A stretch of DNA of 64,000 nt from Streptomyces yatensis (lineage in GTDB: Bacteria > Actinomycetota > Actinomycetes > Streptomycetales > Streptomycetaceae): positions 2,294,001 through 2,358,000 of the forward strand of contig NZ_CP072941.1 in NCBI RefSeq assembly GCF_018069625.1. The letters run 5' to 3'. Numbering within the stretch: the stretch's first letter is position 1; every line of letters begins with the position of its first letter. Position numbers and translations under genes: made by a program. The notes beneath the pieces were generated by a model. It saw only the letters and a list, made by a program, of their open reading frames with translations, had not been told where the DNA came from and ran no database searches. Positions 16,058 to 52,663 of this stretch are shown in pieces.

Positions 16058-16152
16058 GGCCGCGGGCCGGACCGTTACGACGAGGCCGGGGGCCGGACCG
16101 TTACGACAAGGCCGCGGGCCGGGCCGTTACGACGAGGCCGGGGCCGGACCGT
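16058..16152. repeat. 26-bp tandem repeat spanning the rarA stop codon
   Basis: Three full units (16058-16083, 16084-16109, 16110-16135) and a partial fourth (16136-16152) of a 26-bp sequence containing CCGTTACGAC. Read on the minus strand each full unit carries a TAA in the rarA frame; the first one met ends rarA. Confidence 0.9.
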
Positions 16153-17545
16153 CGGCGGACGGCGGCGGGTCGCCCCGCAGCCGCGCCCGCACCCGCTCCA
16201 CCACATCCGCGTACCGCGCCTCGGCGCCGTACCGCGTGGGCTCGTAGTACCGCTTGCCGTGGATCTTGTCCGGTGCGTACTGCTGCGCCGCGATCCCGCC
16301 CGGCAGATCGTGCGGGTAGAGATAGCCCTGTGCGTGGCCGAGCTTCTTGGCGCCCTGGTAGTGGCCATCGCGCAGATGCGGCGGCACCGGCCCGGCCAGG
16401 CCCGCCCGCACATCCGCCAGCGCCGCGCCGATCGCCGTGGTCGCGGCGTTGGACTTGGGCGCGAGTGCCAGGGCGATCGTGGCGTGGCTCAGGGTGAGCG
16501 CGGCCTCCGGGAAGCCGATCAGGGCGACCGCCTGCGCCGCCGCCACGGCGGTGGGCAGGGCGGTCGGATCGGCGAGGCCGATGTCCTCGCTGGCCGAGAT
16601 CATCAGCCGGCGGGCGATGAACCGCGGGTCCTCCCCCGCCTCGATCATCCGGGCCAGATAGTGCAGCGCCGCGTCCACGTCCGAGCCGCGGATGGACTTG
16701 ATGAGGGCGCTGGCCACGTCGTAGTGCTGGTCGCCCGCGCGGTCGTACTTCACCGCGGCCCGGTCGACCGCCTCCTCCAGCGAGGTGAGGGTGACCTCGG
16801 CCTCGCCCTTGTCCAGGGCCGCCCCGGCGCCCGCCTCCAGCGCGGTGAGCGCCCGCCGGGCGTCACCGCCCGCTATGCGCAGCAGATGCGCCTCGGCGTC
16901 CTCGGGGAGGGTGACCGCTCCGCCGAGCCCGCGCTCGTCGGTGAGCGCGCGCCGCAGCAGCCCGCGCAGATCGTCGTCGGTCAGCGGCTCCAGGGTGAGC
17001 AGCAGCGAGCGGGAGAGCAGCGGGGAGATCACGGAGAAGTACGGATTCTCGGTGGTGGCCGCGATCAGCGTCACCCAGCGGTTCTCCACCGCGGGCAGCA
17101 GCGAGTCCTGCTGGGCCTTGCTGAAGCGGTGGATCTCGTCCAGGAAGAGGACGGTGTCCCGCCCGTACGCCCCGGAGGAGCGGCGCGCGCCGTCGATGAC
17201 GGCCCGGACCTCCTTGACCCCGGCGGTGATGGCCGACAGCTCGACGAAGCGCTTCTGGGTGGCCTGGCTGACCACATACGCCAGCGTCGTCTTGCCGATC
17301 CCCGGCGGGCCCCAGAGGATCACCGACGACGGCCCGGCCGGACCGCCGCCGCCCTCGCCCACGAGCCGGCGCAGCGGCGATCCGGGGCGCAGCAGATGCT
17401 GCTGGCCCACGACCTCGTCGAGGGTGCGCGGACGCATCCGCACGGCCAGCGGGCTGCTGGCCGGATCCTTCTCCTGGCGGTCCTCTGCGGCGGCGGTGAA
17501 CAGGTCTGGCTCCACGACGGGAAGCCTATGCCAATGCTCTGACAA
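16127..17545 (-). CDS. rarA: Replication-associated recombination protein A (RarA/MgsA AAA+ ATPase)
   Basis: A 472-residue AAA+ protein of the clamp-loader clade. Walker A is GPPGIGKTT near residue 80, Walker B is LFLDEIHRF near 135, and the DnaX-like lid and the C-terminal tetramerisation helices follow. RarA acts at stalled forks. The ATG at 17545 gives [16 protein letters not shown]; a GTG ten codons in is an alternative. The last codons (APASS then stop) fall inside a tandem repeat, so the C-terminus was shaped by the duplication. Confidence 0.93.
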
Positions 17546-17611
17546 CGCCGCCGGGCCGCCGCCGGGCCCGGGGTTCGGCCGCCGGGCTCAGCCGGGCTCA
17601 GCCCATGGAAA

Positions 17612-18259
17612 CTAAGCGGTCCAGAAGTCCCACCAGCGGGTCAGGATCAGCATCCCGATGGCCCCGATCCACATCACCGGGACCACCCAGTGGAACTCCA
17701 TGAGCCCGCGCCGCAACCCGTCGGGCGCGGGAAGGTATCCGTGCTTGAGGTTGTGGCCGGTGACGTAGCAGAACATCACGATGGTGGCGACCCAGGCGAG
17801 GCAGCACCACAGGCACAGCGAGCCGATCACGTACAGCGACTCGTACTGGAGCCAGGTCACGAAGCCGACGCCGAAGAGCGTGCCCGCGTTGAAGGTCAGC
17901 CAGTACCAGCGCGGGAAGCGGGCCCCGGTCAGCAGGGACATGCCCACGCAGATCACGATGCCGTAGGCGACCAGGCCGAGCATCGGGTTCGGGAAGCCGA
18001 ACGCCTGCGCCTGGTCGCTCTCCATGATGTTGCCGCAGGAGACGACGGGGTTGAGGCTGCAGCCGGGCGTGAAGACCTTACCGTCGGCCTTGTACTCGAG
18101 GATCTTGTTCTTGTCGATCGTGATGACCCAGGCGGCGAGGAGCCCCAGCGCACCGGTGATCACGAGCAGCAGGGCGAAGGCGCGGCTGCCCCCCGTCCCG
18201 GTCCGCACGCCCTCCCGCGCCTCGCCGGACTCCACGTCGTCCATCACTGTCGTCGCCAT
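17612..18259 (-). CDS. Vitamin K epoxide reductase (VKOR) family membrane protein
   Basis: A 215-residue protein with about five membrane segments. It has the VKOR cysteine set: a loop pair CSLNPVVSCG and the active-site CLWC in the fourth helix region (SLCLWCCLAW). Bacterial VKORs reoxidise DsbA-like thiol oxidases with menaquinone. A DsbA-like gene at the right edge of the window could belong to the same class of pathway, though it is 45 kb away. The ATG at 18259 is chosen; another ATG at 18310 would add 17 residues and has no better ribosome site. Confidence 0.88.
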   Translation of the reverse strand: MATTVMDDVESGEAREGVRTGTGGSRAFALLLVITGALGLLAAWVITIDKNKILEYKADGKVFTPGCSLNPVVSCGNIMESDQAQAFGFPNPMLGLVAYGIVICVGMSLLTGARFPRWYWLTFNAGTLFGVGFVTWLQYESLYVIGSLCLWCCLAWVATIVMFCYVTGHNLKHGYLPAPDGLRRGLMEFHWVVPVMWIGAIGMLILTRWWDFWTA

Positions 18260-18437
18260 ACTCGCCGTCCGTCGCTCTCCACCGTGTCCAGCCCCGTCGG
18301 GCACGGCCATTGTGCCGCACCGCCCCCGCCGTACGGCCCGCTTATCCAGGTCATGCCATGGTGCCGTGTCCCCCGTTCGGAGGACATAAGACGGGCTTCC
18401 CGGTCGTCCCCCTGTCCGGCGCGGCACCGTCACGCTC

Positions 18438-19316
18438 ATGGATATGGCAGACGAAGCGATACGGGTGCGCGGACTGCGCAAGCGCTACGGCGCGGTGACC
18501 GCGCTGGACGGCGTTGACCTGGGCATCCGGCAGGGTGAGGTGTTCGGCGTCCTGGGGCCCAACGGGGCGGGCAAGAGCACCACGGTGGAGATCCTCCAGG
18601 GCCATCGGAGCCGGGACGCGGGGGAGGTCACGGTGCTGGGCCGGGACCCCGCCTCCGGGGGACGGGAATGGCGTTCCCGGATCGGCGTCGTTTGGCAGGA
18701 TGAATCCGCCCCGGCCGAGTTGACGGTGCGGGAGACCGTGCGGCACTTCGCCCGCTACTACCCGCGCCCGCGCGACCCCGACGAGGTCATCGGCCTGGTC
18801 GGACTGGAGGCCAAGGCGGGCAGCCGGATCAAGGCGCTGTCGGGCGGCCAGCGGCGCCGGCTGGACGTGGCCCTCGGGGTGATCGGCGATCCGGAGCTGT
18901 TGCTGCTGGACGAGCCGACGACGGGCTTCGATCCGGCGGCGCGGCGGCGGTTCTGGGAGCTGATCCGGCGATTGGCGGACGAGGGCACCACGATCGTGCT
19001 CACCACGCACTATCTCGACGAGGCGGAGGCGCTGTCCGACCGGCTCGCGGTCATCGCCACGGGCAAGGTCGTCGCCGAGGGCGCACCCGCCGAGCTGCGC
19101 GAGCGGTACGGCAGCCGGGCGACGGTCCACTGGGTCGAGCCCGGCGACGGGGCGCGCCATGAGGAGACGGAGACCCCGACCCGTACCGTCGCGGAGCTGA
19201 CGCGCCGCTTCGACGGGGAGATTCCGGGGCTGCGGATCTCCCGGCCGACCCTGGAGGACGTCTATCTGCGGCTCACCGGACAACTCGACGACCAGCCCGG
19301 GGAGGGCGCGCGATGA
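18438..19316 (+). CDS. ABC transporter ATP-binding protein (drug/antibiotic exporter type)
   Basis: A 292-residue ABC ATPase with Walker A GPNGAGKST, signature LSGGQRRRLDVA, Walker B LLLLDEPTTGFD and the H-loop TTHYLDEAEAL. The C-terminal 70 residues form the DUF4162-like tail of the DrrA/CcmA class. It heads a rightward cassette with a permease, a histidine kinase and a response regulator. MADEAIRV two codons in is an alternative start. The substrate is unknown; families of this class usually export drugs, lipids or peptides. Confidence 0.93.
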   Translation: MDMADEAIRVRGLRKRYGAVTALDGVDLGIRQGEVFGVLGPNGAGKSTTVEILQGHRSRDAGEVTVLGRDPASGGREWRSRIGVVWQDESAPAELTVRETVRHFARYYPRPRDPDEVIGLVGLEAKAGSRIKALSGGQRRRLDVALGVIGDPELLLLDEPTTGFDPAARRRFWELIRRLADEGTTIVLTTHYLDEAEALSDRLAVIATGKVVAEGAPAELRERYGSRATVHWVEPGDGARHEETETPTRTVAELTRRFDGEIPGLRISRPTLEDVYLRLTGQLDDQPGEGAR

Positions 19317-20173
19317 CCACCACGAGCACCACCTCCTCCGGTGCCGGACCCGCCGCCGCGGACGCCCCCGCCCGGCTGCCCGGCGCCTGGACCCTCGGGC
19401 TGCACCGGGGCGGCCTCGAGCTCAGGCAGTTCTTCCGCCGGCGCGAACAGGTGGTCTTCACCTTCGCCTTCCCCGTCGTCTTCCTGTCCCTGTTCGCCTC
19501 GATCTTCCGCAACGATGTGCGGGGCGCGGGTGTGACCGCCTCCCAGCTGTACGCCGCGGCGATGATCGCGTCGGGGGTGATGTCGACCAGCTTCCAGTCG
19601 CTGGGCGTCTCCATCGCGCTCGAACGGGACGAGAAGGTGCTGCGGCGGCTGCGCGGTACGCCGATGCCCCCGGCCGCGTACTTCCTCGGCAAGCTGTGGC
19701 TGGTCCTGGTCTCCGGGATCGCCGAGACGGTGCTGCTGCTGGCCGTCGGCGCGGCGCTCTTCGACCTCGATCTGCCCACGGGCGCGGCCACGTGGTTCAC
19801 CTTCGGCTGGGTCTTCGCCCTCGGGCTGACCGGCTGTGCGCTGCTGGGCATCGCGATCAGCAGTGTGCCGCGCTCCGGTAGGAGCGCCACTTCGGTGGTG
19901 GTGTTGCCGTTCCTGGTGCTGCAGTTCATCTCCGGCGTCTTCATCTCGATCGACACGCTGCCCGGCTGGATGCTGAACGTGGCCGCCCTCTTCCCGCTGA
20001 AGTGGATGTGCCAGGGATTCCGCGGGGTGTTCCTGCCGGATTCGGCGGCCGTGCTGGAGCAGGCGGGCTCCTGGGAGTACGGGCGGATCGCCCTGGTGCT
20101 GGGCGCGTGGTGCGTCGGAGGATTGGTGCTGTGTCTGCTGACCTTCCGTTGGAAGAGCCACCGGGACGGCTGA
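19313..20173 (+). CDS. ABC-2 type transporter permease
   Basis: A 286-residue membrane protein with about six hydrophobic segments and the ABC-2 signature region near the C-terminus (LPFLVLQFISGVFISIDTLPG, positions about 198-218). It overlaps the ATPase gene by four bases (ATGA) and should form a 2+2 exporter with it. The N-terminal 25 residues are a Thr/Ser/Ala-rich cytoplasmic tail. The histidine kinase gene begins inside its 3' end. Confidence 0.92.
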   Translation: MTTTSTTSSGAGPAAADAPARLPGAWTLGLHRGGLELRQFFRRREQVVFTFAFPVVFLSLFASIFRNDVRGAGVTASQLYAAAMIASGVMSTSFQSLGVSIALERDEKVLRRLRGTPMPPAAYFLGKLWLVLVSGIAETVLLLAVGAALFDLDLPTGAATWFTFGWVFALGLTGCALLGIAISSVPRSGRSATSVVVLPFLVLQFISGVFISIDTLPGWMLNVAALFPLKWMCQGFRGVFLPDSAAVLEQAGSWEYGRIALVLGAWCVGGLVLCLLTFRWKSHRDG

Positions 20174-21408
20174 GCGAACCGGCCGGGCCCCGCGATCCGG
20201 ACGTGTACCACCGCACCTACCGTCGCTGGGACGTCTACTTCGCGATCGTGTTCGCGGCCACCTTCCTGTTCGTGCTGGGCGGGTCGGACCCCGGCACCGG
20301 ACCGCGCGCGGTCGCGGCGGCCTTCTTCGCCGCGACCGCGCCCTGGTACGTGCTGGTGGGCCGGCCGGTACTGCTGGCGGAAGGCGAGGATCAGCCCCGC
20401 GCGCTGGTCTATCTGGTGGGGCTGTTCCTGCTGTTCGTGGTGCCCTCGGCGCTGGTCGGGGAGACCCGGATCGCCATCTTCGCGCTGACGCCCCAGTGCT
20501 TCATGCTGCTGCGGATGCGCGGGGCGCTGATCGCCGTCACCGTGATCAACGTGGTCCCGGTGGTGGTCTGGGCGCTCGTGGAGCGGCCGGATTCCGGGGA
20601 TCTGTTCTTCAACTCCCTCTTCGCGGCCGTCTCCTGGGCCTTCTCGCTGATCATCGGCAGCTGGATCATCATGGTGCTCCAGCAGAGCGCCGAGCGCGCC
20701 CGGCTGATCGCCGAGCTGGACGCCAGCCGCGAGGAGGTGGCCCGGTTGTCGGCCGCGCACGGCGCCCTCGCGGAGCGGGAGCGGCTGACCCGGGAGATCC
20801 ACGACACCCTCGCCCAGGGCTTCACCAGCCTGCTGATGCTCGTTCAGGCCGTGGAGTCGGAGCTGGACCACGACATGCCGCTGGCCCGCCGGCACTTGGG
20901 CCTCATGGCCGCTACGGCCCGGGAGAACCTCGCGGAGGCCCGCGCCCTGGTCGCCGGCGCCGGCCCGGCCGACCTGGACGGCAGTTCGCTCCCCGACGCG
21001 CTGCGGCGGCTGGCCGCGCGGCACGGGGAGCGGACCGGCACTCCCGCCCGTGTCGAGGTCTCGGGGGCGGTCCGGCCGCTGCCCGCCGCCGTGGAGGTGG
21101 TGGCGCTGCGCGGCTGCCAGGAGGCGCTGTCCAACGCCCGCCGGCACGCGGGGCCGGGCGCCGCCGTCACCATCGCGCTCGGCTACGGCGAGGACGCGCT
21201 GCGGCTGCGGGTCCGGGACTCCGGCCGTGGCTTCGACCCGCGCGCCCCGCGCGAGGGCTACGGCCTGGCCGGGCTGCGCGCACGGGCGGGCGAGGTGGGC
21301 GGCACGGCGGAGGTGGCCGCCGCCCCGGGCGAGGGCACGACGGTCGCGCTCGAACTGCCCGTCCAGCCGACCGCCCCGTCCCCCCATCCAGCCCGGCCGA
21401 CGCAATGA
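20131..21408 (+). CDS. NarL-class sensor histidine kinase with integral membrane sensor
   Basis: A 425-residue kinase. I chose the GTG at 20131 because GGAGGA sits eight bases upstream; this overlaps the permease by 43 bases. A GTG at 20203 is the fallback. Residues about 27-165 hold five to six membrane helices. The HisKA_3 box with the phospho-acceptor is LTREIHDTLAQGF. The ATPase domain has EALSNARRHAGPGA and DSGRGFDPR...GYGLAGLRARAG. It likely phosphorylates the adjacent regulator and senses membrane or cell-wall perturbation, as intramembrane kinases beside ABC-2 exporters often do (inference). Confidence 0.9.
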   Translation: MSADLPLEEPPGRLSEPAGPRDPDVYHRTYRRWDVYFAIVFAATFLFVLGGSDPGTGPRAVAAAFFAATAPWYVLVGRPVLLAEGEDQPRALVYLVGLFLLFVVPSALVGETRIAIFALTPQCFMLLRMRGALIAVTVINVVPVVVWALVERPDSGDLFFNSLFAAVSWAFSLIIGSWIIMVLQQSAERARLIAELDASREEVARLSAAHGALAERERLTREIHDTLAQGFTSLLMLVQAVESELDHDMPLARRHLGLMAATARENLAEARALVAGAGPADLDGSSLPDALRRLAARHGERTGTPARVEVSGAVRPLPAAVEVVALRGCQEALSNARRHAGPGAAVTIALGYGEDALRLRVRDSGRGFDPRAPREGYGLAGLRARAGEVGGTAEVAAAPGEGTTVALELPVQPTAPSPHPARPTQ

Positions 21409-21451
21409 ACTCCGCCACATGAACGCCGAGGGTATGAACGAGGAGCGCACG

Positions 21452-22072
21452 GTGATCCGGATTCTGATCGCGGACGACCACCCGGTGGTGCGGGAGGGGC
21501 TGCGCGGCATGCTCGGCGCCGAACCCGATCTGACGGTCGTCGGCGAGGCGGACAGCGGGCCGCGGGCGGAGGCGCTGTGCGCCTCGCTGCGGCCCGACGT
21601 GGTGCTGATGGACCTGCGGATGCCGGGCGGTGGCGGGGTGGAGTCGATCGCCCGGATGACCGCCGCCGGGCTGCCGTCCCGCGTGATCGTGCTGACCACG
21701 TACGAGACGGACGGGGACATCCTGCGCGCGGTGGAGGCGGGCGCGGCGGGCTATCTGCTCAAGGACATGGCCCGCGCCGAGCTGGCCGAGGCCGTACGCT
21801 CCGCCGCTCGCGGCGAGACGGTCCTGGCCCCGTCCGTCGCCGCCCGGCTCATGGACCAGCTGCGCGACCGGCCCGAGCGCCCCCGCCTCTCCGAGCGGGA
21901 GACGGCCGTGCTGCGGCTGGTCGCGCAGGGGTGCACCAACGCGGAGATCGGACGACGTCTGTTCATCGGCGAATCGACGGTGAAGACCCATCTGCTGCGG
22001 GCCTTCGGCAAGTTGGGCGTGGACGACCGCACCGCGGCGGTCACCAGCGCGATGCGGCTGGGCCTGCTGTAG
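21452..22072 (+). CDS. NarL/FixJ-family response regulator
   Basis: A 206-residue regulator. The receiver domain (about 1-118) has the acidic pair in ADDHPVV, the phospho-acceptor Asp in LMDLRMPGG, and the conserved Lys in LLKDMARAE. A LuxR-type helix-turn-helix follows (LSERETAVLRLVAQGCTNAEIG, positions about 140-161). The GTG at 21452 has GAGGAG six bases upstream; ATGs at 21419 and 21434 are possible earlier starts. It probably controls the upstream ABC exporter. Confidence 0.93.
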   Translation: MIRILIADDHPVVREGLRGMLGAEPDLTVVGEADSGPRAEALCASLRPDVVLMDLRMPGGGGVESIARMTAAGLPSRVIVLTTYETDGDILRAVEAGAAGYLLKDMARAELAEAVRSAARGETVLAPSVAARLMDQLRDRPERPRLSERETAVLRLVAQGCTNAEIGRRLFIGESTVKTHLLRAFGKLGVDDRTAAVTSAMRLGLL

Positions 22073-22085
22073 GGGCAGCGCAAGC

Positions 22086-22118
22086 GAAGGGGGCCCGGGG
22101 AATCCCCGGGCCCCCTTC
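22086..22118. terminator. Bidirectional terminator, response regulator / hisS
   Basis: A perfect 15-bp GC-rich stem (22086-22100 with 22104-22118) closes a 3-base loop between two convergent genes, 13 bases after one stop and 10 before the other. Confidence 0.85.
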
Positions 22119-22127
22119 GATTCCCGC

Positions 22128-23390
22128 TCAGGCGAGGCGCGAGCGGATTGCCTCGACCACCTCGGCCAGGGGCACCGGCGCCTGTTCGCCGGACTCCATG
22201 TCCTTCAGCTGGACGACGTCCTCCGCGAGGTCGCGCTCGCCCGCCACGATCGCGTAGCGCGCGCCGCTGCGGTTGGCCGCCTTCATCGCGGCCTTGAGGC
22301 CCTTGCCGCCGTAGGCGAAGTCCGTGGCGACTCCCGCCGTGCGGAGCTCGCCGACCACGCCGAAGAGGACCTTCCTGGCCTCCTCCCCCAGCGGCACCGC
22401 GAAGACGCTGACGGCGTCGGGCAGGTCCAGCTCGATGCCCTCGGCCTCCAGTGCCAGCACCGTACGGTCCACGCCGAGCGCCCAGCCCACCGAGGGCAGC
22501 GCCGGGCCGCCGATCATCTCGGACAGCCCGTCGTAGCGGCCGCCGCCGCCGACCGCGGACTGCGAGCCCAGCCCGTCGTGGACGAACTCGAAGGTGGTCC
22601 GGGTGTAGTAGTCCAGGCCGCGCACCAGCTTCGCGTCGTCCTCGAAGGTCACGCCCCGCGCGGTGATCAGCTCACGGACCTCCGCGTGGTACGCCTTGCA
22701 CTCCTCGCACAGGTAGTCGCGCAGCAGCGGGGCGCCGGTCAGCTGCTCGCGTACCGCCTCGCGCTTGTCGTCCAGCACCCGCAGCGGGTTGATCTCGACG
22801 CGTGCCCGGGTGTCCTCGTCCAGGTCGAGGCCGCGCAGGAAGTCCTGGAGGGCGGCCCGGTAGACGGGGCGGCAGGTGGCGTCGCCCAGCGAGTTCAGCA
22901 GGATGCGGAAGTTCCGCAGCCCCAGCGAGCGGTACGCGTCGTGGGCCAGGATGATCAGCTCGGCGTCCAGGGCCGGGTCCTCGGCGCCGATCGCCTCCGC
23001 CCCGACCTGCGAGAAGTGGCGGTAGCGGCCCTTCTGCGGCCGCTCGTAGCGGTAGTACGAGCCCGAGTACCAGAGCTTGACCGGCAGGGATCCGGCCTTG
23101 TGCAGATTGGCCTCCAGGGCGGCGCGCAGCACCGAGGCGGTGCCCTCGGGGCGCAGCGCGAGCTCGTCGCCGCCCTTGGTGGTGAGGGTGTACATCTCCT
23201 TGGTCACGATGTCGGTGGACTCGCCGACGCCGCGCGCGAAGAGCTCCACGTTCTCGAAACCGGGGGTCTCGACATAGCCGTAGCCGGAGCGCTTGAGCGG
23301 TGCGGCGATCGCCTCGCGCACCGCCAGGTACGCCGCGGAGGCCGGCGGGATCAGGTCATACGTGCCCCGGGGGGCTTTGAAGGTGCTCAA
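22128..23390 (-). CDS. hisS: Histidyl-tRNA synthetase
   Basis: A 420-residue class IIa synthetase. Motif 2 is [11 protein letters not shown], the His-specific [13 protein letters not shown] stretch follows, and motif 3 is [25 protein letters not shown] (positions about 280-305). A C-terminal anticodon-binding domain ends it. The TTG at 23390 gives (M)[15 protein letters not shown], the usual beginning; the open frame upstream is not conserved-looking. It lies 13 bases downstream of the metallo-hydrolase gene, so they are co-transcribed. Confidence 0.96.
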
Positions 23391-26649: not shown

Positions 26650-26679
26650 GTGGTGAGCTGTTTCAGCGGGTGCGGGTCC

Positions 26680-29211
<2,532 letters not shown>

Positions 29212-29381
29212 GAGCACTCCTCAAGCGGTCCGGACCTCGAAAGGTCAGGCTGCCATGGTATCGATCCCGCCACTCCGCTTGCCTGCCGACCGCCAAGCCG
29301 GGCATGACGGAGGCATGTGGCGGCATGACGGAGGGCGGGGACCGGCGGTGCGCGGTCCCCGCCCTCCGGCGGTTCTCTCGG

Positions 29382-29472
29382 CCCGGTGCGCGGGCCTCGA
29401 CCCGGTGTGCGGGCCTCGACCCGGTGTGCGGGCCTCGACCCGGTGTGCGGGCCTCGACCCGGTGTGCGGGCC
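29382..29472. repeat. 19-bp tandem array just downstream of apt
   Basis: Four full 19-bp units starting at 29382, 29401, 29420 and 29439 and a partial fifth from 29458, with the sequence CCCGGTGTGCGGGCCTCGA; the first unit has one substitution. The array ends 11 bases beyond the apt stop and fills much of the gap between apt and the relA start. Confidence 0.95.
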
Positions 29473-31218: not shown

Positions 31219-31219
31219 C

Positions 31220-35684: not shown

Positions 35685-36277
35685 GAGATACGGCCTTTCG
35701 TGGTGCGCGCGGCGCCGGTGTTGTTCTTGGTGCGGGCACTGTTCGTGGTGCGGGCACTGTTCGTGCCGCGGTGGGCGGCGACGGCCTGCTGGAGGCGGTT
35801 GGTCGCGGGGGCCCGCCAGATATGGCAGATGGCGAGCGCCAGGGCGTCCGCCGCGTCGGCCGGTTTGGGCGGTGCGTCCAGCCGCAGCAGCCGGGTCACC
35901 ATCGAGCCGACCTGCGCCTTGTCAGCCCGCCCGGATCCGGTCACGGCCGCCTTCACCTCGCTGGGGGTGTGCAGCGCGACCGGGAGCCCGCGGCGGGCCG
36001 CGCACAGCATCGCGACGGCGCTGGCCTGGGCGGTGCCCATGACGGTGCGCACATTGTGCTGGCTGAACACCCGCTCCACGGCGACGAATTCGGGCCGGTG
36101 GGCGTCCAGCCACTCCTCTATGCCGCGCTCGACGATGACGAGCCGGTCGCCGATCGCGAGGTCCGCCCCGGTCCGGATGACGCCGACGCCGAGCATCCGC
36201 AACGGCCGGCCCGCGACCCCCTCGACCACGCCGACGCCGCACCGGGTCAGCCCCGGGTCCACGCCCAGCACGCGCAC
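35681..36277 (-). CDS. ruvC: Holliday junction resolvase RuvC
   Basis: A 198-residue RNase H-fold endonuclease. Acidic residues are in [14 protein letters not shown] at the start, VAVERVF in the middle, and [12 protein letters not shown] near 145. The core ends near residue 165; the last 33 residues (with [13 protein letters not shown]) are an extra tail encoded by an 18-bp tandem repeat. It is first in ruvC-ruvA-ruvB and overlaps ruvA by four bases. Confidence 0.97.
35723..35767 (-). repeat. 18-bp in-frame tandem repeat in the 3' end of ruvC
   Basis: Units 35723-35740 and 35741-35758 differ at one base and a partial copy follows to about 35767. They encode the repeated hexapeptide NSART(T/K) in the extra C-terminal tail. 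Confidence 0.85.
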
Positions 36278-37189: not shown

Positions 37190-37276
37190 CCGCCTGTCTC
37201 CTTCGCGTTACCCAATGCTGTACCAACGCCTGAGATCCTACCGGGATCGGCTCAGCCCGCGGCGCGGACCAGCCCT

Positions 37277-37432
37277 CCCGTCTCCCGCCACCACCCTCAA
37301 CCGAGCGCTACGCGCGCCCCACCATCCCCCCGTCTCCCGCCACCACCCTCAACCGAGCGCTACGCGCGCCCCACCATCCCCCCGTCTCCCGCCACCACCC
37401 TCAACCGAGCGCTACGCGCGCCCCACCATTTC
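37277..37432 (-). repeat. 52-bp tandem triplication covering the pdxT 3' end
   Basis: Three near-identical 52-bp units start at 37277, 37329 and 37381. The unit at 37381-37432 contains the last codons and TAG stop of pdxT (37412-37414); the two others carry copies of that gene end, stop included, downstream of the gene. Identity between units is almost complete, so the expansion is recent. Confidence 0.97.
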
Positions 37433-42938: not shown

Positions 42939-45146
42939 ATGGGCGACAAGACGAGTACGCACCCAGGGGCCGCCGGAAGGGCAGCGGCGGCCGACCGGCC
43001 CAGCTCCCTGCGGAATGTGGTTCTGGTCGGCCACAGTGGGACGGGAAAGACGACGCTGGTGGAGGCTCTGGCACTGGCGACGGGCGCGGTCAACCGGGCG
43101 GGCAGAGTCGAGAACGGAGGCTGCCTCTCCGACTACGACGAAATCGAGCACCGGCAACAACGTTCGATTCAGCTGTCCCTGGTCCCCGTCGAATGGGGCG
43201 GGATGAAGATCAATCTCCTGGACACCCCCGGCTACGCCGATTTCGTCGGGGAGCTCAGGGCCGGTCTGCGAGCCGCGGACGCGGCCCTTTTCGTTGTCTC
43301 GGCCGCCCAGGACGCCCTGGGCATCACCGGGGCCACCCGCATGATCTGGGACGAGTGCGCCGCGGTCGGAATGCCCCGCGCCCTCGTGATCACCCACCTG
43401 GAAGCGGCCCGCGCCAGCTTCGAGGAGATGACCGAGCTGTGCCGGGACAGCTTCGGCGGCGACGACCCCGACGCCGTCCTGCCGCTCTACCTGCCGCTGC
43501 GCGGCGAGCCGGGGCCCGACGGGCACGCGCCCGTGACCGGGCTCATCGGGCTGCTCACCCAGCGGGTCTTCGACTACTCCTCGGGGGTGCGCACCGAATC
43601 GCCGCCCCGGGAGGACCAGCTCCCGCTGGTCGAGGAGGCCCGCGGCCGGCTCATCGAGGGGATCATCGCCGAGAGCGAGGACGAGACCCTCATGGACCGC
43701 TATCTCGGCGGTGAGGAGATCGACGTCAAGACGCTGATCGAGGACCTGGAGAAGGCCGTCGCGCGCGGCAGCTTCCACCCCGTGCTGGCGGCGGCGCCCG
43801 CCGCCGAGGGCTCCAAGCAGGGCCTGGGCACCGTCGAACTGCTGGACCTGGTGACCGGCGGCTTCCCCTCCCCGCTGGAGCGCGAGACGCCCGCCGTCAC
43901 CACCCCCCAGGGGGCCGCACGCCCGCCGCTGAGCTGCGATCCGGAGGGTCCGCTGGCCGCCGAGGTGGTCAAGACCTCCTCCGATCCGTATGTCGGCCGG
44001 ATCTCCCTGGTGCGGGTCTTCTCCGGCACGCTCCGCCCCGACGAGACCGTCCATGTCTCCGGCCACGGTATGGAGGACCGCGGCCATGAGGACCACGACG
44101 TGGACGAGCGGGTCGGCGCCCTGTCCGCGCCCTTCGGAAAGCAGCAGCGCACCCTCGCCCAGGCCATCGCGGGCGATCTGGCCTGCGTGGCCAAGCTGAC
44201 CCGCGCCGAGACCGGCGACACGCTCTCGGCCAAGGACGAGCCGCTCCTCATGGAGCCCTGGCAGATGCCCGATCCGCTGCTGCCCGTGGCCATCCGCGCG
44301 CACAGCAAACCGGACGAGGACAAGCTGTCGCTGGGCCTGTCCCGGCTGGTCGCCGAGGACCCGACGATGCGCCTGGAGCAGAATCCGGACACCCACCAGG
44401 TGGTGCTGTGGTGCCTGGGCGAGGCGCATATGGACGTCGCGCTGGAACGGCTGCGCAGCCGCTACGGGGTCCAGGTGGACGCGGTGCCCTACAAGGTCTC
44501 GCTGCGCGAGACCTTCGCGGGGAAGTCGGCCGGGCGCGGCCGCCATGTCAAACAGTCCGGAGGGCACGGGCAGTACGCGATCTGCGAGATCGAGGTGGAG
44601 CCGCTGCCGGAGGGCTCGGGCATCGAGTTCGTGGACAAGGTCGTCGGCGGCGCGGTGCCCCGGCAGTTCATCCCGTCCGTCGAGAAGGGCGTACGCGGCC
44701 AGGCGGCACGCGGCGTCGCGGCCGGCTACCCCCTGGTCGACGTGCGGGTCACGCTGCTGGACGGCAAGGCGCACTCGGTGGACTCCTCCGACGCCGCCTT
44801 CCAGACGGCGGGCGCGCTCGCACTGCGCGAGGCGGCCGCCGACGCCCGGATCGACCTGCTGGAACCGGTGGTCGAGCTGGGCGTACTGGTCTCGGACGAC
44901 TATGTCGGCGCCGTCATGAGCGATCTGTCCGGCCGGCGCGGCCGGGTCGTCGGCACCGAACAGTCGGGCGGCGGACAGACCCTGATCAAGGCGGATGTGC
45001 CGGAGATCGAGATCGGCCGGTACGCGGTCGATCTGCGATCGCTGTCACACGGCACGGGACGGTTCAGCCGCTGCTACGCCCGGCATGAGGCGATGCCCCA
45101 TCAGCTGGCCGAGCGGATGCGCGAACAGGTGACCGCCGAGGCGTAG
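42939..45146 (+). CDS. EF-G paralogue (EF-G2/FusA2-like) with altered GTPase motifs
   Basis: A 735-residue protein with the five-domain EF-G layout. G1 is GHSGTGKTTL. G3 is DTPGYADF, where translating EF-G has DTPGHVDF, so the catalytic His is Tyr. The G4 position reads VITHLEAA where NKxD is expected. The insert region and domains III-V continue normally (VKQSGGHGQYAICEIEVEPL, about 550-569). The ATG at 42939 follows GGGAGG. It is divergent from the PI operon. Mycobacterial FusA2 lacks translocation activity; this may be similar. Confidence 0.92.
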   Translation: MGDKTSTHPGAAGRAAAADRPSSLRNVVLVGHSGTGKTTLVEALALATGAVNRAGRVENGGCLSDYDEIEHRQQRSIQLSLVPVEWGGMKINLLDTPGYADFVGELRAGLRAADAALFVVSAAQDALGITGATRMIWDECAAVGMPRALVITHLEAARASFEEMTELCRDSFGGDDPDAVLPLYLPLRGEPGPDGHAPVTGLIGLLTQRVFDYSSGVRTESPPREDQLPLVEEARGRLIEGIIAESEDETLMDRYLGGEEIDVKTLIEDLEKAVARGSFHPVLAAAPAAEGSKQGLGTVELLDLVTGGFPSPLERETPAVTTPQGAARPPLSCDPEGPLAAEVVKTSSDPYVGRISLVRVFSGTLRPDETVHVSGHGMEDRGHEDHDVDERVGALSAPFGKQQRTLAQAIAGDLACVAKLTRAETGDTLSAKDEPLLMEPWQMPDPLLPVAIRAHSKPDEDKLSLGLSRLVAEDPTMRLEQNPDTHQVVLWCLGEAHMDVALERLRSRYGVQVDAVPYKVSLRETFAGKSAGRGRHVKQSGGHGQYAICEIEVEPLPEGSGIEFVDKVVGGAVPRQFIPSVEKGVRGQAARGVAAGYPLVDVRVTLLDGKAHSVDSSDAAFQTAGALALREAAADARIDLLEPVVELGVLVSDDYVGAVMSDLSGRRGRVVGTEQSGGGQTLIKADVPEIEIGRYAVDLRSLSHGTGRFSRCYARHEAMPHQLAERMREQVTAEA

Positions 45147-45209
45147 TTCACGGCCCGCCCGTGGCGTATCTCACGGTCGGTCCGGGGCGTATTTCACGGC
45201 CCGCCCGCC
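45141..45209 (+). repeat. 23-bp tandem repeat (x3) beginning at the EF-G paralogue stop
   Basis: Units 45141-45163, 45164-45186 and 45187-45209 begin GCGTAG, GCGTAT and GCGTAT. The first contains the TAG stop (45144-45146); in the others the G has become T. Similarity is 75-90 percent by eye, so this array is older than that of pdxT. Confidence 0.85.
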
Positions 45210-47033: not shown

Positions 47034-47045
47034 TCCGCCGTACGC

Positions 47046-47095
47046 ACCGTATGGGGAGGGCCCCGGCCGTGCGGCCGGGGCCCTCCCCATACGGT
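47046..47095. terminator. Bidirectional terminator between the unknown membrane gene and the HIT gene
   Basis: A perfect 23-bp stem (47046-47068 with 47073-47095) closes a GTGC loop between convergent genes. Confidence 0.95.
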
Positions 47096-47113
47096 ATGCG
47101 GCATGCGGCGTGG

Positions 47114-47668
47114 CTATGCCTGGGCCTTCGGCCAGGCGTCGGCCAGCAACTGACGGGTGTCGGCGAGAAGTTGCGGCAGCACCTTGGTGTTGCCGATGAC
47201 CGGCATGAAGTTGGTGTCCCCGCCCCAGCGCGGCACCACATGCTGATGCAGATGCGCCGCGATCCCGGCTCCGGCGACGGTGCCCTGGTTCATGCCGATA
47301 TTGAAACCGTGCGCACCCGAGGCGGTACGGAGCGCGGTCATGGCGGCCTTGGTGTATTCCGCCAGCTCGATGGTCTCCTCGGCGGTGAGCTCGGTGTAGT
47401 CGGCGATGTGCCGGAACGGGACGACCATGAGATGGCCGCCGGTGTACGGGTACAAATTGAGCACCGCGTACACAGAGGCGCCTCGAGCGATGATCAAGCC
47501 ATCCTCGTCCGACTTCTCCGGAATGGAGCAGAACGGACAGCCATCGCCCGCGCCCGGGCCGGTCGGCTTGTTCTCCCCCTGGATGTAGGCCATCCGATGG
47601 GGCGTCCACAGGCGCTGGAACGCGTCAGGCGTCCCCACTCCGATCTGCTGTTCCGGCTCACTCGTCAT
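47114..47668 (-). CDS. HIT-family nucleotide hydrolase/phosphorylase
   Basis: A 184-residue histidine-triad protein. The zinc-type CPFCSIPEK pair and the catalytic HLHQHVVPRW are visible. Its length and CPFC motif fit the AP4A phosphorylase-like branch (related to mycobacterial Rv2613c). The ATG at 47668 gives MTSEPEQQIGVGTPD. It lies downstream of thrS in the same direction but behind a strong terminator hairpin. Confidence 0.92.
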   Translation of the reverse strand: MTSEPEQQIGVGTPDAFQRLWTPHRMAYIQGENKPTGPGAGDGCPFCSIPEKSDEDGLIIARGASVYAVLNLYPYTGGHLMVVPFRHIADYTELTAEETIELAEYTKAAMTALRTASGAHGFNIGMNQGTVAGAGIAAHLHQHVVPRWGGDTNFMPVIGNTKVLPQLLADTRQLLADAWPKAQA

Positions 47669-47706
47669 GCGGGCCAGCATATTCGCCCGGCCGCGGTGAG
47701 GAAGAG

Positions 47707-47740
47707 CCGAGGGGCGGCCCTGGTCAGGGCCGCCCCTCGG
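47707..47740 (-). terminator. thrS terminator
   Basis: A 16-bp stem with a 2-base loop (47707-47740) sits about 30 bases after the thrS stop. Confidence 0.85.
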
Positions 47741-47771
47741 AATCCCGGCCTCCGTGGGAGACCGCGGTGGA

Positions 47772-49751
47772 TCAGACCTGGATCCGGCGCTCCACGGCGT
47801 CGGCGATCTCGGCCAGCGCCTCGTCGACCGGGATGCCGTTCTTCTGCGAGCCGTCGCGGTAGCGGAAGCTCACCGCGTTGTTGGCCACGTCCTCGTCACC
47901 GACGATCACCATGAACGGGATCTTGGACTTCTGGGAGTTCCTGATCTTCTTCTGCATCCGGTCCGAGGACGAGTCGACCTCCATCCGCAGGCCCTTCGCC
48001 TTGGCCTGCGCGGCGAACTCCTCCAGGTACGGGACATGGGTGTCGCCGATCGGGATGCCGACCGCCTGGACCGGGGCGAGCCACACCGGGAAGGCGCCCG
48101 CGTAGTGCTCCAGCAGGACCGCGAAGAAGCGCTCGATCGAGCCGAAGAGCGCCCGGTGGATCATGACGGGCTGCTGACGCGAGCCATCGGCCGCGGTGTA
48201 CTCCAGCTCGAACCGCTCCGGTTGGTTGAAGTCGACCTGGATGGTCGACATCTGCCAGGTACGGCCGATCGCGTCCCGGGCCTGGACCGAGATCTTGGGG
48301 CCGTAGAAGGCCGCGCCGCCCGGGTCCATGACCAGCTCCAGGCCCTGCTTCTCGGCCGCCTTGCGCAGCTCCTCGGTGGCCTCCTCCCACTGCTCCGGCC
48401 CACCGATGAACTTGTCGGAGTCGTCCCGGGTGGACAGCTCCAGATAGAAGTCGCTCAGACCGTAGTCGCGCAGCAGATTCAGCACGAAGGTGAGCAGATT
48501 GTCCAGCTCATCGGCCATCTGCTCCTTGGTGCAGTAGATGTGCGAGTCGTCCTGGGTGAAGCCCCGGGCCCGGGTCAGGCCGTGGACGACGCCGGACTTC
48601 TCGTACCGGTAGACCGTGCCGAACTCGAACAACCGCAGCGGCAACTCGCGATACGACCGCCCGCGCGCCCTGAAGATCAGGTTGTGCATCGGGCAGTTCA
48701 TGGCCTTGAGGTAGTAGTCCTGGCCCTCGAACTCCATGGGCGGGAACATGCCGTCCATGTAGTGCGGCAGGTGGCCCGAGGTCTCGAAAAGGCGCGCCTT
48801 GGTGATGTGCGGGGTGTTGACGAACTCGTACCCCGACTCCTCGTGCCGCTTGCGCGAGTACTCCTCCATCTCCTTGCGGATCACCCCGCCCTTGGGGTGG
48901 AACACCGCGAGGCCCGAGCCCAGCTCGTCGGGGAAGGAGAACAGGTCCAGCTCGGCGCCCAGCTTGCGGTGGTCGCGCTTCTCGGCCTCGGCGAGGAAGT
49001 CCAGGTACGCCTTCAGCTCGTCCTTGGTCGGCCAGGCGGTGCCGTAGATCCGCTGGAGCTGGGGGTTCTTCTCACTGCCCCGCCAGTACGCGGCGGCGCT
49101 GCGCATCAGCTTGAAGGCCGGGATGTTCCGCGTGGTCGGCAGGTGCGGACCGCGGCACAGGTCCTTCCAGCACAGCTCGCCGGACTTGGCGTCGAGGTTG
49201 TCGTAGATGGTCAGCTCGCCCGCGCCGACCTCGGCCGACGCGCCCTCGGCGGCGTCCGCGGCCGATCCCTTGAGCCCGATCAGCTCCAGCTTGTACGGCT
49301 CGGCGGACAGCTCCTCGCGCGCCTCGTCGTCGGTGACCACGCGGCGGGAGAACCGCTGCCCCCTCTTCTGGATCTCCTGCATCTTCTTCTCGATGCGCTT
49401 GAGATCGTCCGGGTGGAACGGGGTCTCGACGTCGAAGTCGTAGTAGAAGCCGTCCTTGATCGGCGGGCCGATGCCCAGCTTGGCCTCGGGGAACAGCTCC
49501 TGCACCGCCTGGGCCATGACATGCGCGGTGGAGTGGCGCAGGATGTCCAGGCCGTCCTTGCTGGTGATCTCCACGGGCTCGATCTCGTCGCCCTCGGCCG
49601 GCTGGTACGCCAGGTCCTTGAGCTGTCCGGCCACGCGCACGGCGACGATCGAGCGGTCGCCGGAGAAGAGGTCCGCCGTCGTAGTGCCCGTGGCCACCAC
49701 GCGTTCTTCCCGCTCGGAATCGCGTTGGATGATCACACGGACGTCTGACAC
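47772..49751 (-). CDS. thrS: Threonyl-tRNA synthetase
   Basis: A 659-residue class IIa synthetase. The N-terminal TGS domain is followed by an editing domain with [10 protein letters not shown] and CRGPHLPTT, the catalytic core, and the anticodon-binding domain. The GTG at 49751 gives (M)[12 protein letters not shown] with AGGAGAG upstream; the open frame further upstream is not conserved-looking. I see no T-box leader in the 130 bases before it. Confidence 0.97.
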
Positions 49752-49883
49752 CGGTCTCTCCTGACTGATGGATGGCTCACCGCGGCTCATGCGGCGCAGC
49801 GTGAATCGTACCGAGCCGACGGGCGGGACCGCGAAACGGTTGTGCCCGCCGTCGCCGGGCGCCGTCACGGGCGGGGGCGGCGG

Positions 49884-51086
49884 TCAGGGACCGCCGCCGC
49901 ATGCCTCCTCGAAGAAGTCCAGGTTCTCCTGGAGCGATTTGACCAGCCGGTCCCGCTCGGCCTCGTCCACCTGGACCGGGGTGACGCCGGTGGCCCCGCT
50001 GAGCCGCCGGAAGCCGCCGCGGCTCTCCAGCCGCCCCCGCACCCGGATCGGCAGTCCCACCAGATGGGCGTGGCCGGCGATCCGGTAGTCCTCCTCGTCC
50101 AGGGTGATCCGCACCTGTGAGACCTCCGCCCCGGAGAGCACCCGCAGCCGCACCGTGCCGGGACCGCCGGGGCCGGTACGGCGCAGCCGCACCACCGCAC
50201 CGGTGAGGCATACGGGCACCGACGGCTCGTCCCGGACATAGCGGGCGCCCGCCTCCCGCAGCCCCGGCAGATCGCCGGGCGAGAATTCCACCGGATCGGG
50301 CCGGGCCGCGAACCCCGGCGGCGGACCGGCGGCCGGTGACCACTCCAGTGCCACCCGCGCCCCCTCCGTGCCCTGGACCAGCGCGACCACCGCCTCGGTC
50401 AGCTCCCGGCTGGCCCCCGCCGCGACCGCCGCGTCGTACACCTCCATGCCGCCGGTCGTCCGGTGGTAGTCGGCGGCGTCACGCAGGGCGTACAGGGCGC
50501 GCAGCAGGGTGACGGCGGTGGCGCGGCCGTCCTCCTCGACGGGCACGAAGACGGTCAGCTCACGGCCGCCGGAATCCGCTCCCGGGGGCCCGGTCAGCAC
50601 CCGCTCCAGGGACGCCTCGGCGGCGCGGCGGTGCCGGGCGCCGTAGTAGCCCGCCCGGCCGCGGGCGGCGAGCGCCGCGGCCAGCAGGGTGTCGCGGGCG
50701 GCGGCGCGCAGCCGCTCCTGCGCGGTCCAGGCGGAGGTGCCGCCGGGCGATTCGGGCACCTCGCGCCGCCAGCGGATCTCATCGCTGGGCACGGCGAGGC
50801 CGGTGAGCACCTCGCGGGCGGAGGGGGCGGCGCTGCGGCTGAGCGCCATCAACGCCTCGGCGAGCAGATCGCCGCTGTCGGGGAAGTCCCGGCTCTCGGG
50901 CACCAGCAGGCTGGTGGCGCCCGCGGTCCGGCCCGGCGGCGTCCAGCGGGCGTAGCGCCCCGGGGTGCCGCCGCGGCGGCGCCAGCCGTGCCGGGCGAGC
51001 AGGGCGCCGAGGACGGCCGGATCGGTCTCGTCGGGGTGCGGGACCGACGGGGGTGCCGGGTCGTCCTGGGGCCACGGTCGGTCCAT
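49884..51086 (-). CDS. Unknown protein coupled to a DUF4365 gene
   Basis: A 400-residue protein that I do not recognise. Residues about 1-125 are an Arg/Pro-rich helical region. The last 110 residues (from VPVCLTGAVVRLRRTG through VGLPIRVRGRLESRGGFRRL) look like alternating beta strands of a small OB-like barrel (impression only). The ATG at 51086 overlaps the stop of the DUF4365 gene by one base (TGATG); a GTG one codon earlier overlaps it by four. The stop codon lies in the stem of a 9-bp hairpin (49877-49897). Confidence 0.7.
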   Translation of the reverse strand: MDRPWPQDDPAPPSVPHPDETDPAVLGALLARHGWRRRGGTPGRYARWTPPGRTAGATSLLVPESRDFPDSGDLLAEALMALSRSAAPSAREVLTGLAVPSDEIRWRREVPESPGGTSAWTAQERLRAAARDTLLAAALAARGRAGYYGARHRRAAEASLERVLTGPPGADSGGRELTVFVPVEEDGRATAVTLLRALYALRDAADYHRTTGGMEVYDAAVAAGASRELTEAVVALVQGTEGARVALEWSPAAGPPPGFAARPDPVEFSPGDLPGLREAGARYVRDEPSVPVCLTGAVVRLRRTGPGGPGTVRLRVLSGAEVSQVRITLDEEDYRIAGHAHLVGLPIRVRGRLESRGGFRRLSGATGVTPVQVDEAERDRLVKSLQENLDFFEEACGGGP

Positions 51087-51664
51087 CACGGTCTCCCTCC
51101 CGCCCCGACCCGGGTCATGATCTCGCAGAGCGCGCGGTCGTCGAAGACCCGCGAGGTCGGGATCCGCACGGTGGTCCGGCGACGGCCCGTGATCGGGTGG
51201 CCGGCCAGATTGATCCAGTAGCAGCAGTGGCGCAGGGACAGTCGGTCATGTCCGGCGCGCAGCCAGTCCTCCTGGCTGCGCGGCACGATCATCACCACGA
51301 GGATCTTGTGCACGGAGACCGGGCTGCGGGCCAGCTTGATCAGGTGGTCGTTGTCGAGGGTGAAGGCGAAGGTCGGGCCCGGAGGGTCCGGTGCGATCTG
51401 GTACGTGGCCTTGAGCTGCACCTTGATGGTGACCTCGTCGTCCACGGCGTGGCCGGGCGCGCTGTGGCTGACATGCCAGTCGATGCCGTGGTCGGGAAAG
51501 GGCTGGGCCAGTGAGCAGCCCGCGGCGGCGGCGACCGCGTGCAGATACCCCACTTGCAGGGTCTCCATGCAGGCGGTGGTCGCGATCTGGCCACGCACGG
51601 GGGGTGTTCCGCTCAGGGCAAGGCCGCTCACCGTCGGGGCCGGGTCGGGTTTTGCGAGCGTCAT
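51086..51664 (-). CDS. DUF4365-domain protein, possible PD-(D/E)XK nuclease fold
   Basis: A 192-residue protein beginning MTLAKPDPAP. The DUF4365 pattern is visible: an early helix with ACMETLQVGYLHAVAAAAGC, then GIDWHV, then IKVQLKATYQ. The spacing of E, D and QxK resembles the PD-(D/E)XK nuclease core, which supports but does not prove nuclease activity. Its stop overlaps the start of the unknown gene, so the two are translated together. A DEDDh exonuclease is divergent, with a 162-base shared promoter region. Confidence 0.75.
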   Translation of the reverse strand: MTLAKPDPAPTVSGLALSGTPPVRGQIATTACMETLQVGYLHAVAAAAGCSLAQPFPDHGIDWHVSHSAPGHAVDDEVTIKVQLKATYQIAPDPPGPTFAFTLDNDHLIKLARSPVSVHKILVVMIVPRSQEDWLRAGHDRLSLRHCCYWINLAGHPITGRRRTTVRIPTSRVFDDRALCEIMTRVGAGGRP

Positions 51665-51826
51665 GTCCGTGACGCCTTCCGGTCGTCGCCGGCATACGTA
51701 CACCTGTGTTGTCTCCGCGTCAGGACCTCGGCAAACAGCGGCGGTTCGAGGTGCTCGCTCCGGGTATCACCTGGTCGGGGCGGGATGCAGGAGTCATCGA
51801 CGGGAAAAGCACGAGGAGTTGGGGCC

Positions 51827-52552
51827 ATGCCGTCCTGGTTCGAGGGGCCGCTTGCCGCCTTTGACACGGAGACCACGGGTGTCGATGTCGAGCATGACCG
51901 GATCGTGTCGGCGGCGCTGGTGGTGCAGCGCGGGACCGGAAGTCTGCCGGAGATCCGGCGTTGGCTGGTGAGTCCGGGGGTGCCGGTGCCGCCGGCCGCC
52001 ACCGAGATACACGGCCTGACCGATGCCCATCTGCAGCGTCACGGCAGATGGCCGGCGCCGGTGATGGACGAGATGGCGCGGGCGATAGCCGAGCAGACCG
52101 CGCGGGGCACCCCGCTGGTGGTGATGAACGCGCCGTTCGATCTGACCCTGCTGGACCGGGAGTTGAAGCGGCATCGCAACTCCAGCCTGGCGGGCTATCT
52201 TTCACTGCGCTCGATGAGCGTGCTGGATCCACGCGTGCTGGACAAGCATCTGGACCGCTATCGCAAGGGCCGCCGCACCCTGCTCGATCTGTGCGCGCAC
52301 TACGGAGTGGAGCTGACCGGCGCGCATGACGCGGCGGCGGACGCGGCGGCCTCCCTGCAGGTGGTGCGGGCGGTGGGCCGCCGGTTCGCCTCGCGGCTGG
52401 AGACGCTCACACCCGCCGAGTTGCACGCCCGCCAGACGATCTGGTACGCGGCGCAGGCCCGGGGGCTGCAGGCGTGGTTCGCGCTCAACGGCTCGGACGA
52501 GGTCTGCGATCCGGCCTGGCCGCTGCGTCCCGACCTCGCGGCCGCGGCCTGA
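51827..52552 (+). CDS. DnaQ-like DEDDh 3'-5' exonuclease
   Basis: A 241-residue exonuclease of the DNA polymerase III epsilon family. Motif I is AAFDTETTGVD, motif II NAPFDLTLL, and motif III GAHDAAADAAAS with the His-x4-Asp of the DEDDh class. The ATG at 51827 has GAGGAG upstream; the frame is open before it. About 60 residues beyond the nuclease core (HARQTIWYAAQARGLQAWF) complete it. The gene's end is duplicated in a 40-bp tandem repeat. Confidence 0.93.
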   Translation: MPSWFEGPLAAFDTETTGVDVEHDRIVSAALVVQRGTGSLPEIRRWLVSPGVPVPPAATEIHGLTDAHLQRHGRWPAPVMDEMARAIAEQTARGTPLVVMNAPFDLTLLDRELKRHRNSSLAGYLSLRSMSVLDPRVLDKHLDRYRKGRRTLLDLCAHYGVELTGAHDAAADAAASLQVVRAVGRRFASRLETLTPAELHARQTIWYAAQARGLQAWFALNGSDEVCDPAWPLRPDLAAAA

Positions 52553-52618
52553 CGCTCGCCGGCTGCGTCCCGACCTCGCGGCCGCGGCCTGACGCTCGTG
52601 GCCGCGGCCTGCCACTCG
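52522..52618 (+). repeat. 40-bp tandem repeat spanning the exonuclease stop
   Basis: Units 52522-52561 and 52562-52601 are almost identical; a partial third copy of about 17 bases follows. Each full unit carries CGGCCTGACGCTCG, so the TGA stop (52550-52552) and about nine preceding codons are copied downstream. Confidence 0.95.
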
Positions 52619-52620
52619 GG

Positions 52621-52663
52621 GCGGCGGAGCGAGAGGGGGCTCAGGTGCGGCGGAGCGAGAAGG
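52621..52663 (-). repeat. 26-bp-period duplication spanning the VOC gene stop
   Basis: GCGGCGGAGCGAGA(G/A)GG occurs at 52621-52636 and 52647-52663, 26 bases apart, on either side of the VOC stop (52641-52643). On the minus strand the last codons (FSLRR) are repeated after the stop. Confidence 0.75.

Follow-up and report, generated by a model that had tools for sequence, protein, structure and literature searches.

Tandem repeats at gene ends in Streptomyces yatensis: probably tolerated minisatellites, with a dispersed hairpin and G-rich element at pdxT

The analysis presented here implies that the tandem repeats found over or just beyond the stop codons of unrelated genes in Streptomyces yatensis are probably a mixture of two phenomena: minisatellites that are tolerated at gene ends, and, in the array at the end of pdxT, a dispersed element that has been amplified in place. 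The stretch studied, called the window below, comprises 64,000 nucleotides (G000:C1:2294001-2358000) of a single-contig genome of 10.36 Mb with 71% GC, and feature positions are window positions. A reading made from the letters alone (the sequence-only reading) had pointed out such repeats at the stop codons of six genes and had attributed them to a process acting at gene ends. Four observations carry the first part of our interpretation, namely the distribution of the arrays, the stop codon falling within the first copy, periods without a frame bias and the scarcity of arrays where the orthologues of the window genes end. The second part is carried by the dispersal of the element, its recurrent tandem copies and the length difference from relatives in two genes.

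Arrays at gene ends in the window and across the genome

Arrays were detected with Tandem Repeats Finder (TRF), with main cut-offs of score at least 60 and period at least 15. At these values the window, coding arrays included, holds 11 arrays, whereas 20 first-order Markov shuffles average 0.25 and never exceed 2; raising the score to at least 80 leaves 9 in the window and none in the shuffles. The window arrays are thus head-to-tail copies above chance, as expected of minisatellites or variable-number tandem repeats. The features concerned are listed below.

16058-16152, minus strand: array over the rarA stop codon (16127-16129), 26 bp, 3.7 copies; TRF score 162, gene call, NCBIfam AAA/RarA-type matches
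26663-26693, minus strand: weak repeat over the relA stop codon (26680-26682), 17 bp, two copies; self-match score 11, RelA domains
29377-29472, minus strand: array immediately beyond the apt stop codon, 19 bp, 5.1 copies; TRF score 178, phosphoribosyltransferase domain
35722-35771, minus strand: array within the coding 3' part of ruvC, 18 bp; TRF scores 81 and 66, RuvC domain
37268-37429, minus strand: array at the pdxT end, 52 bp, 3.1 copies; TRF score 308, dispersed matches elsewhere, element profile
37412-37414, minus strand: pdxT stop codon TAG, within the loop of the element's hairpin; gene call, hairpin analysis
45136-45207, plus strand: array over the stop codon (45144-45146) of an EF-G2-like gene, 23 bp, 3.1 copies; TRF score 95, NF009377 EF-G2
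52522-52598, plus strand: array over the stop codon (52550-52552) of a DEDDh exonuclease gene, 40 bp, 1.9 exact copies; TRF score 154, NF005927
52621-52664, minus strand: imperfect repeat over the stop codon (52641-52643) of a VOC/glyoxalase-like gene, 26 bp, two copies; self-match score 15, PF18029

Strong arrays therefore lie over the called stops of four of the six genes (rarA, pdxT, EF-G2 and DEDDh). The repeats at relA and VOC are weak: against a self-match background of 10 (95%) and 15.8 (99%), the relA score of 11 is just over the lower value and the VOC score of 15 falls between the two. The apt array just past the stop and the ruvC array inside the coding 3' end were both recovered by TRF as they had been described; the latter lies wholly in coding sequence and has a period divisible by three. 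A repeat named at ssgB was not located in the window. A further array with a period of 42/21 bp was seen at 62077-62211, outside the range that the sequence-only reading covered.

The placement of arrays was examined in 100 evenly spaced 20-kb stretches of the same genome (2.0 Mb, window excluded) with 1540 called genes; their noncoding part of 351.8 kb holds 282 noncoding arrays. Altogether 462 arrays were found in this sample. Stop codons are overlapped by 68 of them, compared with 29.7±5.2 under uniform placement, and start codons by 11, compared with 30.3±4.7, so that the contrast between stops and starts proposed for checking came out as enrichment at the former and depletion at the latter. 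Among the arrays centred in coding sequence, the period is a multiple of three in 170 of 183. The excess at stops, the deficit at starts and the frame-keeping periods together indicate that the stop-straddling pattern holds genome-wide. For the 73 arrays with score at least 150 no excess at stops was seen (10 compared with 12.1 expected). The density per noncoding kb is 1.34 in convergent gaps, 0.95 in tandem gaps and 0.49 in divergent gaps.

A unit that starts inside a gene and ends beyond its stop codon leaves the protein unchanged, and a proper null has to admit such units. Since distal intergenic DNA carries promoters and uncharacterised features, the null was narrowed to stop-proximal DNA: for periods of 15-80, placements were limited to 40 or 100 bp beside stops and kept out of the 60 bp ahead of any following start. 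At the 40-bp limit, 53 of 103 arrays straddle the stop, compared with 49.4 expected (P 0.27), and at the 100-bp limit 53 of 135, compared with 44.8 (P 0.08). At convergent stops there is no excess for either distance (27 of 56 compared with 30.1, and 27 of 72 compared with 29.8). Position is thus explained by tolerance alone, as for minisatellites, apart from a residual in tandem gaps that is weighed below. For every 1000 eligible stops, each 10-bp step between -20 and +9 has about 22 arrays; the figure is mostly 8-16 as far as +100 and drops further out, and near starts it is about 2. The 3' zone is permissive as a whole, and no special property need be ascribed to the stop codon.

The internal arrangement of the arrays follows the same tendency. 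In 60 of 63 straddling arrays with a period of at most 60 the stop codon lies in the first copy, which means that the array enters the gene by no more than about one unit; such arrays would persist because the first copy leaves the gene end unchanged. The periods of these 63 arrays show no frame bias (23, 18 and 22 with remainders 0, 1 and 2 modulo three), and their stop codons are TGA in 46, TAG in 15 and TAA in 2 cases. Orthologous gene ends rarely carry a stop-overlapping array (relA 2/84, apt 0/80, pdxT 0/72, ruvC 0/65, rarA 3/60, EF-G 0/6, DEDDh 1/5; the comparison yielded no orthologue of VOC). Among the 80 RelA loci retained, from which records very near to the studied genome were possibly excluded, the best match, from Streptomyces milbemycinicus (96%), has no array at the apt or the pdxT end, and none was listed for its apt orthologue (L175).

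Most arrays would accordingly be ordinary minisatellites that arose by tandem duplication or slippage, slippage being the presumed mutation. They would persist where they are harmless, either just 3' of genes or straddling the stop, and those at starts, promoters and out-of-frame coding positions would be purged, with selection acting as a filter. Neutral tolerance suffices for the gene-end pattern. The neutral slippage sparing the first stop, which the sequence-only reading had put forward as one explanation, fits the placement null, the position of the stop and the unbiased periods, and a process dedicated to gene ends is not needed, although the tandem-gap residual has to be kept in mind.

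A dispersed hairpin and G-rich element

No similarity was found among the 11 window arrays or between them and the 282 sampled noncoding arrays, and in this respect the statement that the units share no sequence was right. The conclusion drawn from it, that no spreading element is involved, fails for the pdxT array, since its 52-bp unit has dispersed copies: it matches five further places in the genome and many in the genus. The element is about 48-54 bp long; in it a short hairpin, whose loop is often GNA, precedes the conserved core GGGTGGTGGYGGGNGACGGG. In an alignment of 32 copies the core is almost invariant and the hairpin upstream is variable; 17 of the 32, compared with 0.36 in shuffles, have a hairpin with a GNA loop and a stem of 4 or more at a distance of 7-10 nt upstream of the core, and ten different sequences form it. 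The core, which may be written GGG-TGGTGGY-GGG-NGAC-GGG-N-GGG, fits the pattern of four G-runs and is thus a candidate G-quadruplex. No terminal inverted repeat of the kind that marks a MITE was evident by eye in this alignment. Inside the pdxT array the element profile matches at 37271-37323, 37329-37374 and 37381-37428, and we propose that this array would be a tandem amplification of an element that elsewhere lies both between and inside genes.

The spread of the element was followed with a sequence model (R1). At a cut-off of E<=0.01 it matches 56 of 61 Streptomyces genomes, or 43 of 48 when the 13 genomes that supplied model copies are left out, the lowest E-value in any one genome being 5.8e-14; the studied genome has 14 matches, tandem copies included, and the richest (G022) has 35. 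In a sample of the class (118 genomes, 72 genera) matches at E<=0.001 occur in 12 genomes of 3 genera. BLAST with the valS copy additionally found that some genomes of another family in the same order match at the position of the element. Because the class search was strict and BLAST matches lie beyond it, the range given here is a lower bound. Tandem copies recur in several genomes, and one 4.8-Mb genome has 34 R1 matches, of which many follow one another in tandem at distances of 48-61 bp. Runs of 3-4 element copies were seen in G144 (4.8 Mb, another family) at C8:190225-190426, C7:178384-178543, C5:344751-344920 and C2:246603-246754.

The extra length is seen most clearly in two core genes. 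The valS stretch is 661 bp in the studied genome, and of 36 relatives 34 can be matched across this stretch, every one of them 54 bp (18 codons) shorter; an alignment of ValS to the sequence of the best solved structure (1gax) has gaps at the element region. For nuoM, the 19 same-genus relatives that match the full stretch have 613 bp, which is 48 bp shorter, one more member of the genus shows this 48-bp shortfall across part of the stretch, and in more distant genomes the difference is 48-66 bp. Altogether the hosts include ValS, NuoM, mycothiol synthase, homoserine dehydrogenase, a LuxR-type regulator, glucosylglycerate hydrolase, MqnC, a ZIP transporter and a CbiX protein. Called genes contain 16 of the 39 core matches at element loci, or 16 of 33 distinct places (one locus, L281, duplicates L262, so that one place outside genes was counted twice among the matches). 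All ten same-strand coding copies are read in one phase, which gives an SVEGGGGRR-type peptide, and the six opposite-strand copies fall in two phases. Two of the same-strand copies (L260 and L270) look like a single inherited insertion, which reduces the events to nine at most, and one coding placement (L263) is doubtful because a like place in L275 was called intergenic.

Gene ends are a further location of the element. The TAG of the hairpin is the stop codon of pdxT in the studied genome and likewise the stop codon at a moaE end in four genomes (G000, G003, G009 and G022; the MoaE domain was checked for locus L005 only). In S. pacificus the pdxT stop is a TGA directly before the core, and a second core follows 47 bp on; in strain SAJ15 a weaker copy follows pdxT, and in S. 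roseoverticillatus a copy lies between pdxS and pdxT. Counting the window (37268-37429), the element thus lies beside pdxT in four different Streptomyces, with differing positions and orientations (L216:1814-1918, L177:1965-1996 and L188:1523-1573, in the order just named). In the 80 relA loci both element matches at E<0.01 adjoin pdxT. These copies hint at an insertion hotspot or at old inheritance.

We infer that the element moves as a unit and that it brought the stop codons at some gene ends. No description of it was recognised when the open-access literature was searched for the element or for arrays straddling stops in Streptomyces, a search that was judged mainly by title and included the core letters. 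With somewhat less assurance than for the two-part interpretation, we favour the view that this is an undescribed mobile family of about 50 bp, composed of a variable GNA-loop hairpin and a G-quadruplex-like core, which spreads in Streptomyces and in a small number of further genera of actinomycetes. It would insert in frame into core enzymes as a linker of SVEGGGGRR(A/E)GG type, donate stops as in pdxT and moaE, and amplify in tandem where this is harmless, thereby seeding a part of the gene-end arrays.

Weighing of the alternatives

Several results weigh against the interpretation given above. When harmless placements are drawn from all intergenic DNA in convergent and tandem gaps, 67 arrays straddle stops compared with 37.2 expected, a 1.8-fold excess over what intergenic space predicts (P 6e-7), which fades within 40 bp of stops. 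In tandem gaps it does not fade entirely: at score at least 60 there are 26 of 47 compared with 20.2 (40 bp, P 0.06) and 26 of 63 compared with 17.1 (100 bp, P 0.01), and at score at least 80 there are 20 compared with 14.5 (40 bp, P 0.04) and with 12.0 (100 bp, P 0.007). A modest gene-end bias is possible from this residual 1.3-1.7-fold excess between tandem genes, and all gene ends used here come from a purpose-written caller, trained on the open frames of the same genome, and not from curated annotation. One could argue that gene ends are mutational hotspots, where tandem duplication is triggered by termination, by colliding polymerases or by damage at the ends of transcripts, and the density in convergent gaps, the highest of the three, agrees with this as well. 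However, collision should act most at convergent stops, which is exactly where the narrowed null leaves no excess, and other species show little of it: in the 80 relA loci 19 arrays straddle stops compared with 13.1 (P 0.05) and 10 compared with 8.9 at score at least 80, and another genome (G007) has 2 compared with 1.4. We regard the hotspot as unlikely. Selection of arrays as spare stop codons or RNA 3'-end signals, which the sequence-only reading had also entertained, could draw on the TGA present in many units, owing to which stops recur in later copies. The periods without frame preference, the orthologues mostly devoid of arrays and the folding of stop-overlapping units, which is no better than in shuffles (median z -0.06, n=63), speak against it and make it very improbable; a spare-stop function is not needed. 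An assembly artefact is conceivable in so far as tandem repeats are error-prone in assembly and the arrays are known from assembled sequence and not from reads. It is the least credible of all the alternatives, because copies differ within four of the five gene-end window arrays (pdxT, apt, rarA and EF-G2, with matches of 77-98%, compared with 100% in DEDDh), coding arrays keep frame and noncoding arrays also occur in 35 of the 80 independent relA loci.

The account of the element meets difficulties of its own. The 32 aligned copies were gathered by similarity to the pdxT unit, and such sampling favours a conserved core. The insertions in valS and nuoM were read from length differences and not from the letters of empty sites, and the element boundaries are approximate. 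The element profile gave no match (E<0.01) in the 2.0-Mb sample, where about 3 were expected from 14 in 10.36 Mb. The count of Y1 transposases (PF01797) is uncorrelated with element copy number over the 61 genomes (Spearman 0.11, P 0.40); Y1 occurs in 15 of them, namely in 6 of the 10 with at least 10 copies and in 9 of the other 51, and several copy-rich genomes have none (G003 with 20 copies, G008 with 16, G036 with 15 and G082 with 10). For want of an overall correlation a Y1 transposase was not adopted as the driver, but a link is possible, given its presence in six of the ten copy-rich genomes. It could also be that the dispersed copies are unrelated G-rich low-complexity matches, given a G-rich core in a genome of this composition and R1 counts that stand without a shuffled-genome control. 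This is hardly credible in view of the E-values, the hairpin lying 7-10 nt from the core in about half of the aligned copies, the single same-strand coding phase and the extra length in two genes; moreover, low-complexity matches would not be confined to 3 of 72 genera or absent from the 2.0-Mb sample.

Hairpins might also have made the arrays, by hairpin-driven slippage. GNA-loop hairpins occur in 23 of the 282 noncoding arrays, compared with 4 in a shuffled-unit control, and a second similarity group of 25 arrays from 15 of the 100 stretches clusters at E<=1e-8, compared with 2-4 in shuffles. However, folding is not in excess overall, neither in stop-overlapping arrays nor in other noncoding ones (n=197), where the gain is likewise near zero, and as a general cause hairpin-driven slippage is improbable. 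To this cluster belongs a family of long arrays whose units are mini-hairpins, for example GGGGCGGAGCCCC and GGGGCGAAGCCCC (L074:8018-8950, L053:11813-12213, L108:9876-10586 and others). A single sequence family behind all arrays was rejected, since the cluster of 63-64 sampled arrays at E<=1e-3 is mostly of low complexity and shuffles cluster 36-50.

The genome itself is rich in arrays, with 0.80 noncoding arrays per kb (282 in 351.8 kb), compared with 11 in 70.6 kb in G007 and 6 in 32.8 kb in six syntenic relatives; the sample (L037-L136) is about five times denser per kb than G007 and these relatives (L155-L174). As the S. milbemycinicus piece is array-rich too (3 in 1.6 kb), the excess may be the property of a lineage. 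A loss of mismatch repair by NucS was rejected as its cause, as a NucS match is present in all 37 genomes searched, the studied one included. As for the rest of the window, two tRNA-Val (CAC) genes of equal Rfam score lie 7.5 kb apart (53148-53222 and 60707-60780), and Rfam at gathering scores found nothing beyond these two in the window.

Related repeat systems and significance

The MIRU of mycobacteria are tandem repeats of about 50 bp that overlap gene ends, and they resemble the arrays described here by description only. According to the portion of the source drawn on here (PMC4692102), G-quadruplex-forming heptamer repeats of Xanthomonas and Nostoc are arranged in tandem, often 0-50 bp from stops and in some cases overlapping them, with few between divergent genes. 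The likeness lies in G-rich tandem repeats near or over stops that are scarce in divergent gaps. The heptamers, however, share one unit sequence, whereas most arrays here have private units of at least 15 bp, and the element is not a heptamer but a hairpin with a G-rich core of about 50 bp.

The Rickettsia palindromic elements (RPE), as far as part of their description goes (PMC10969869), are small repeats of about 150 bp placed in frame within unrelated metabolic genes. The element described here shares this placement, as its 16 core matches inside genes (the doubtful L263 among them) and the length differences of 54 and 48 bp illustrate. In contrast to RPE it adds only 48-54 bp, is palindromic only in part, with the hairpin at one end, forms tandem arrays and occurs in actinomycetes. 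REP and REPIN sequences are likewise short dispersed hairpin repeats and are associated with Y1 (RAYT) transposases, judging from the portions of PMC2817692 and PMC3116915 drawn on here. These are mainly extragenic, whereas nearly half of the distinct element places (16 of 33) lie inside called genes, and four genomes with 10-20 copies lack a Y1 match.

The gene-end pattern is ordinary in its cause, a small residue between tandem genes aside, and the element works like an in-frame selfish repeat. The first part accounts in neutral and quantitative terms for repeats that straddle stop codons in a GC-rich bacterium, and since such an account is available, these repeats need not be taken for signals. 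The second part offers the case of a 50-bp sequence that spreads without an identified transposase, and its in-frame copies in core genes are natural experiments on proteins that accept 16-18 extra residues.

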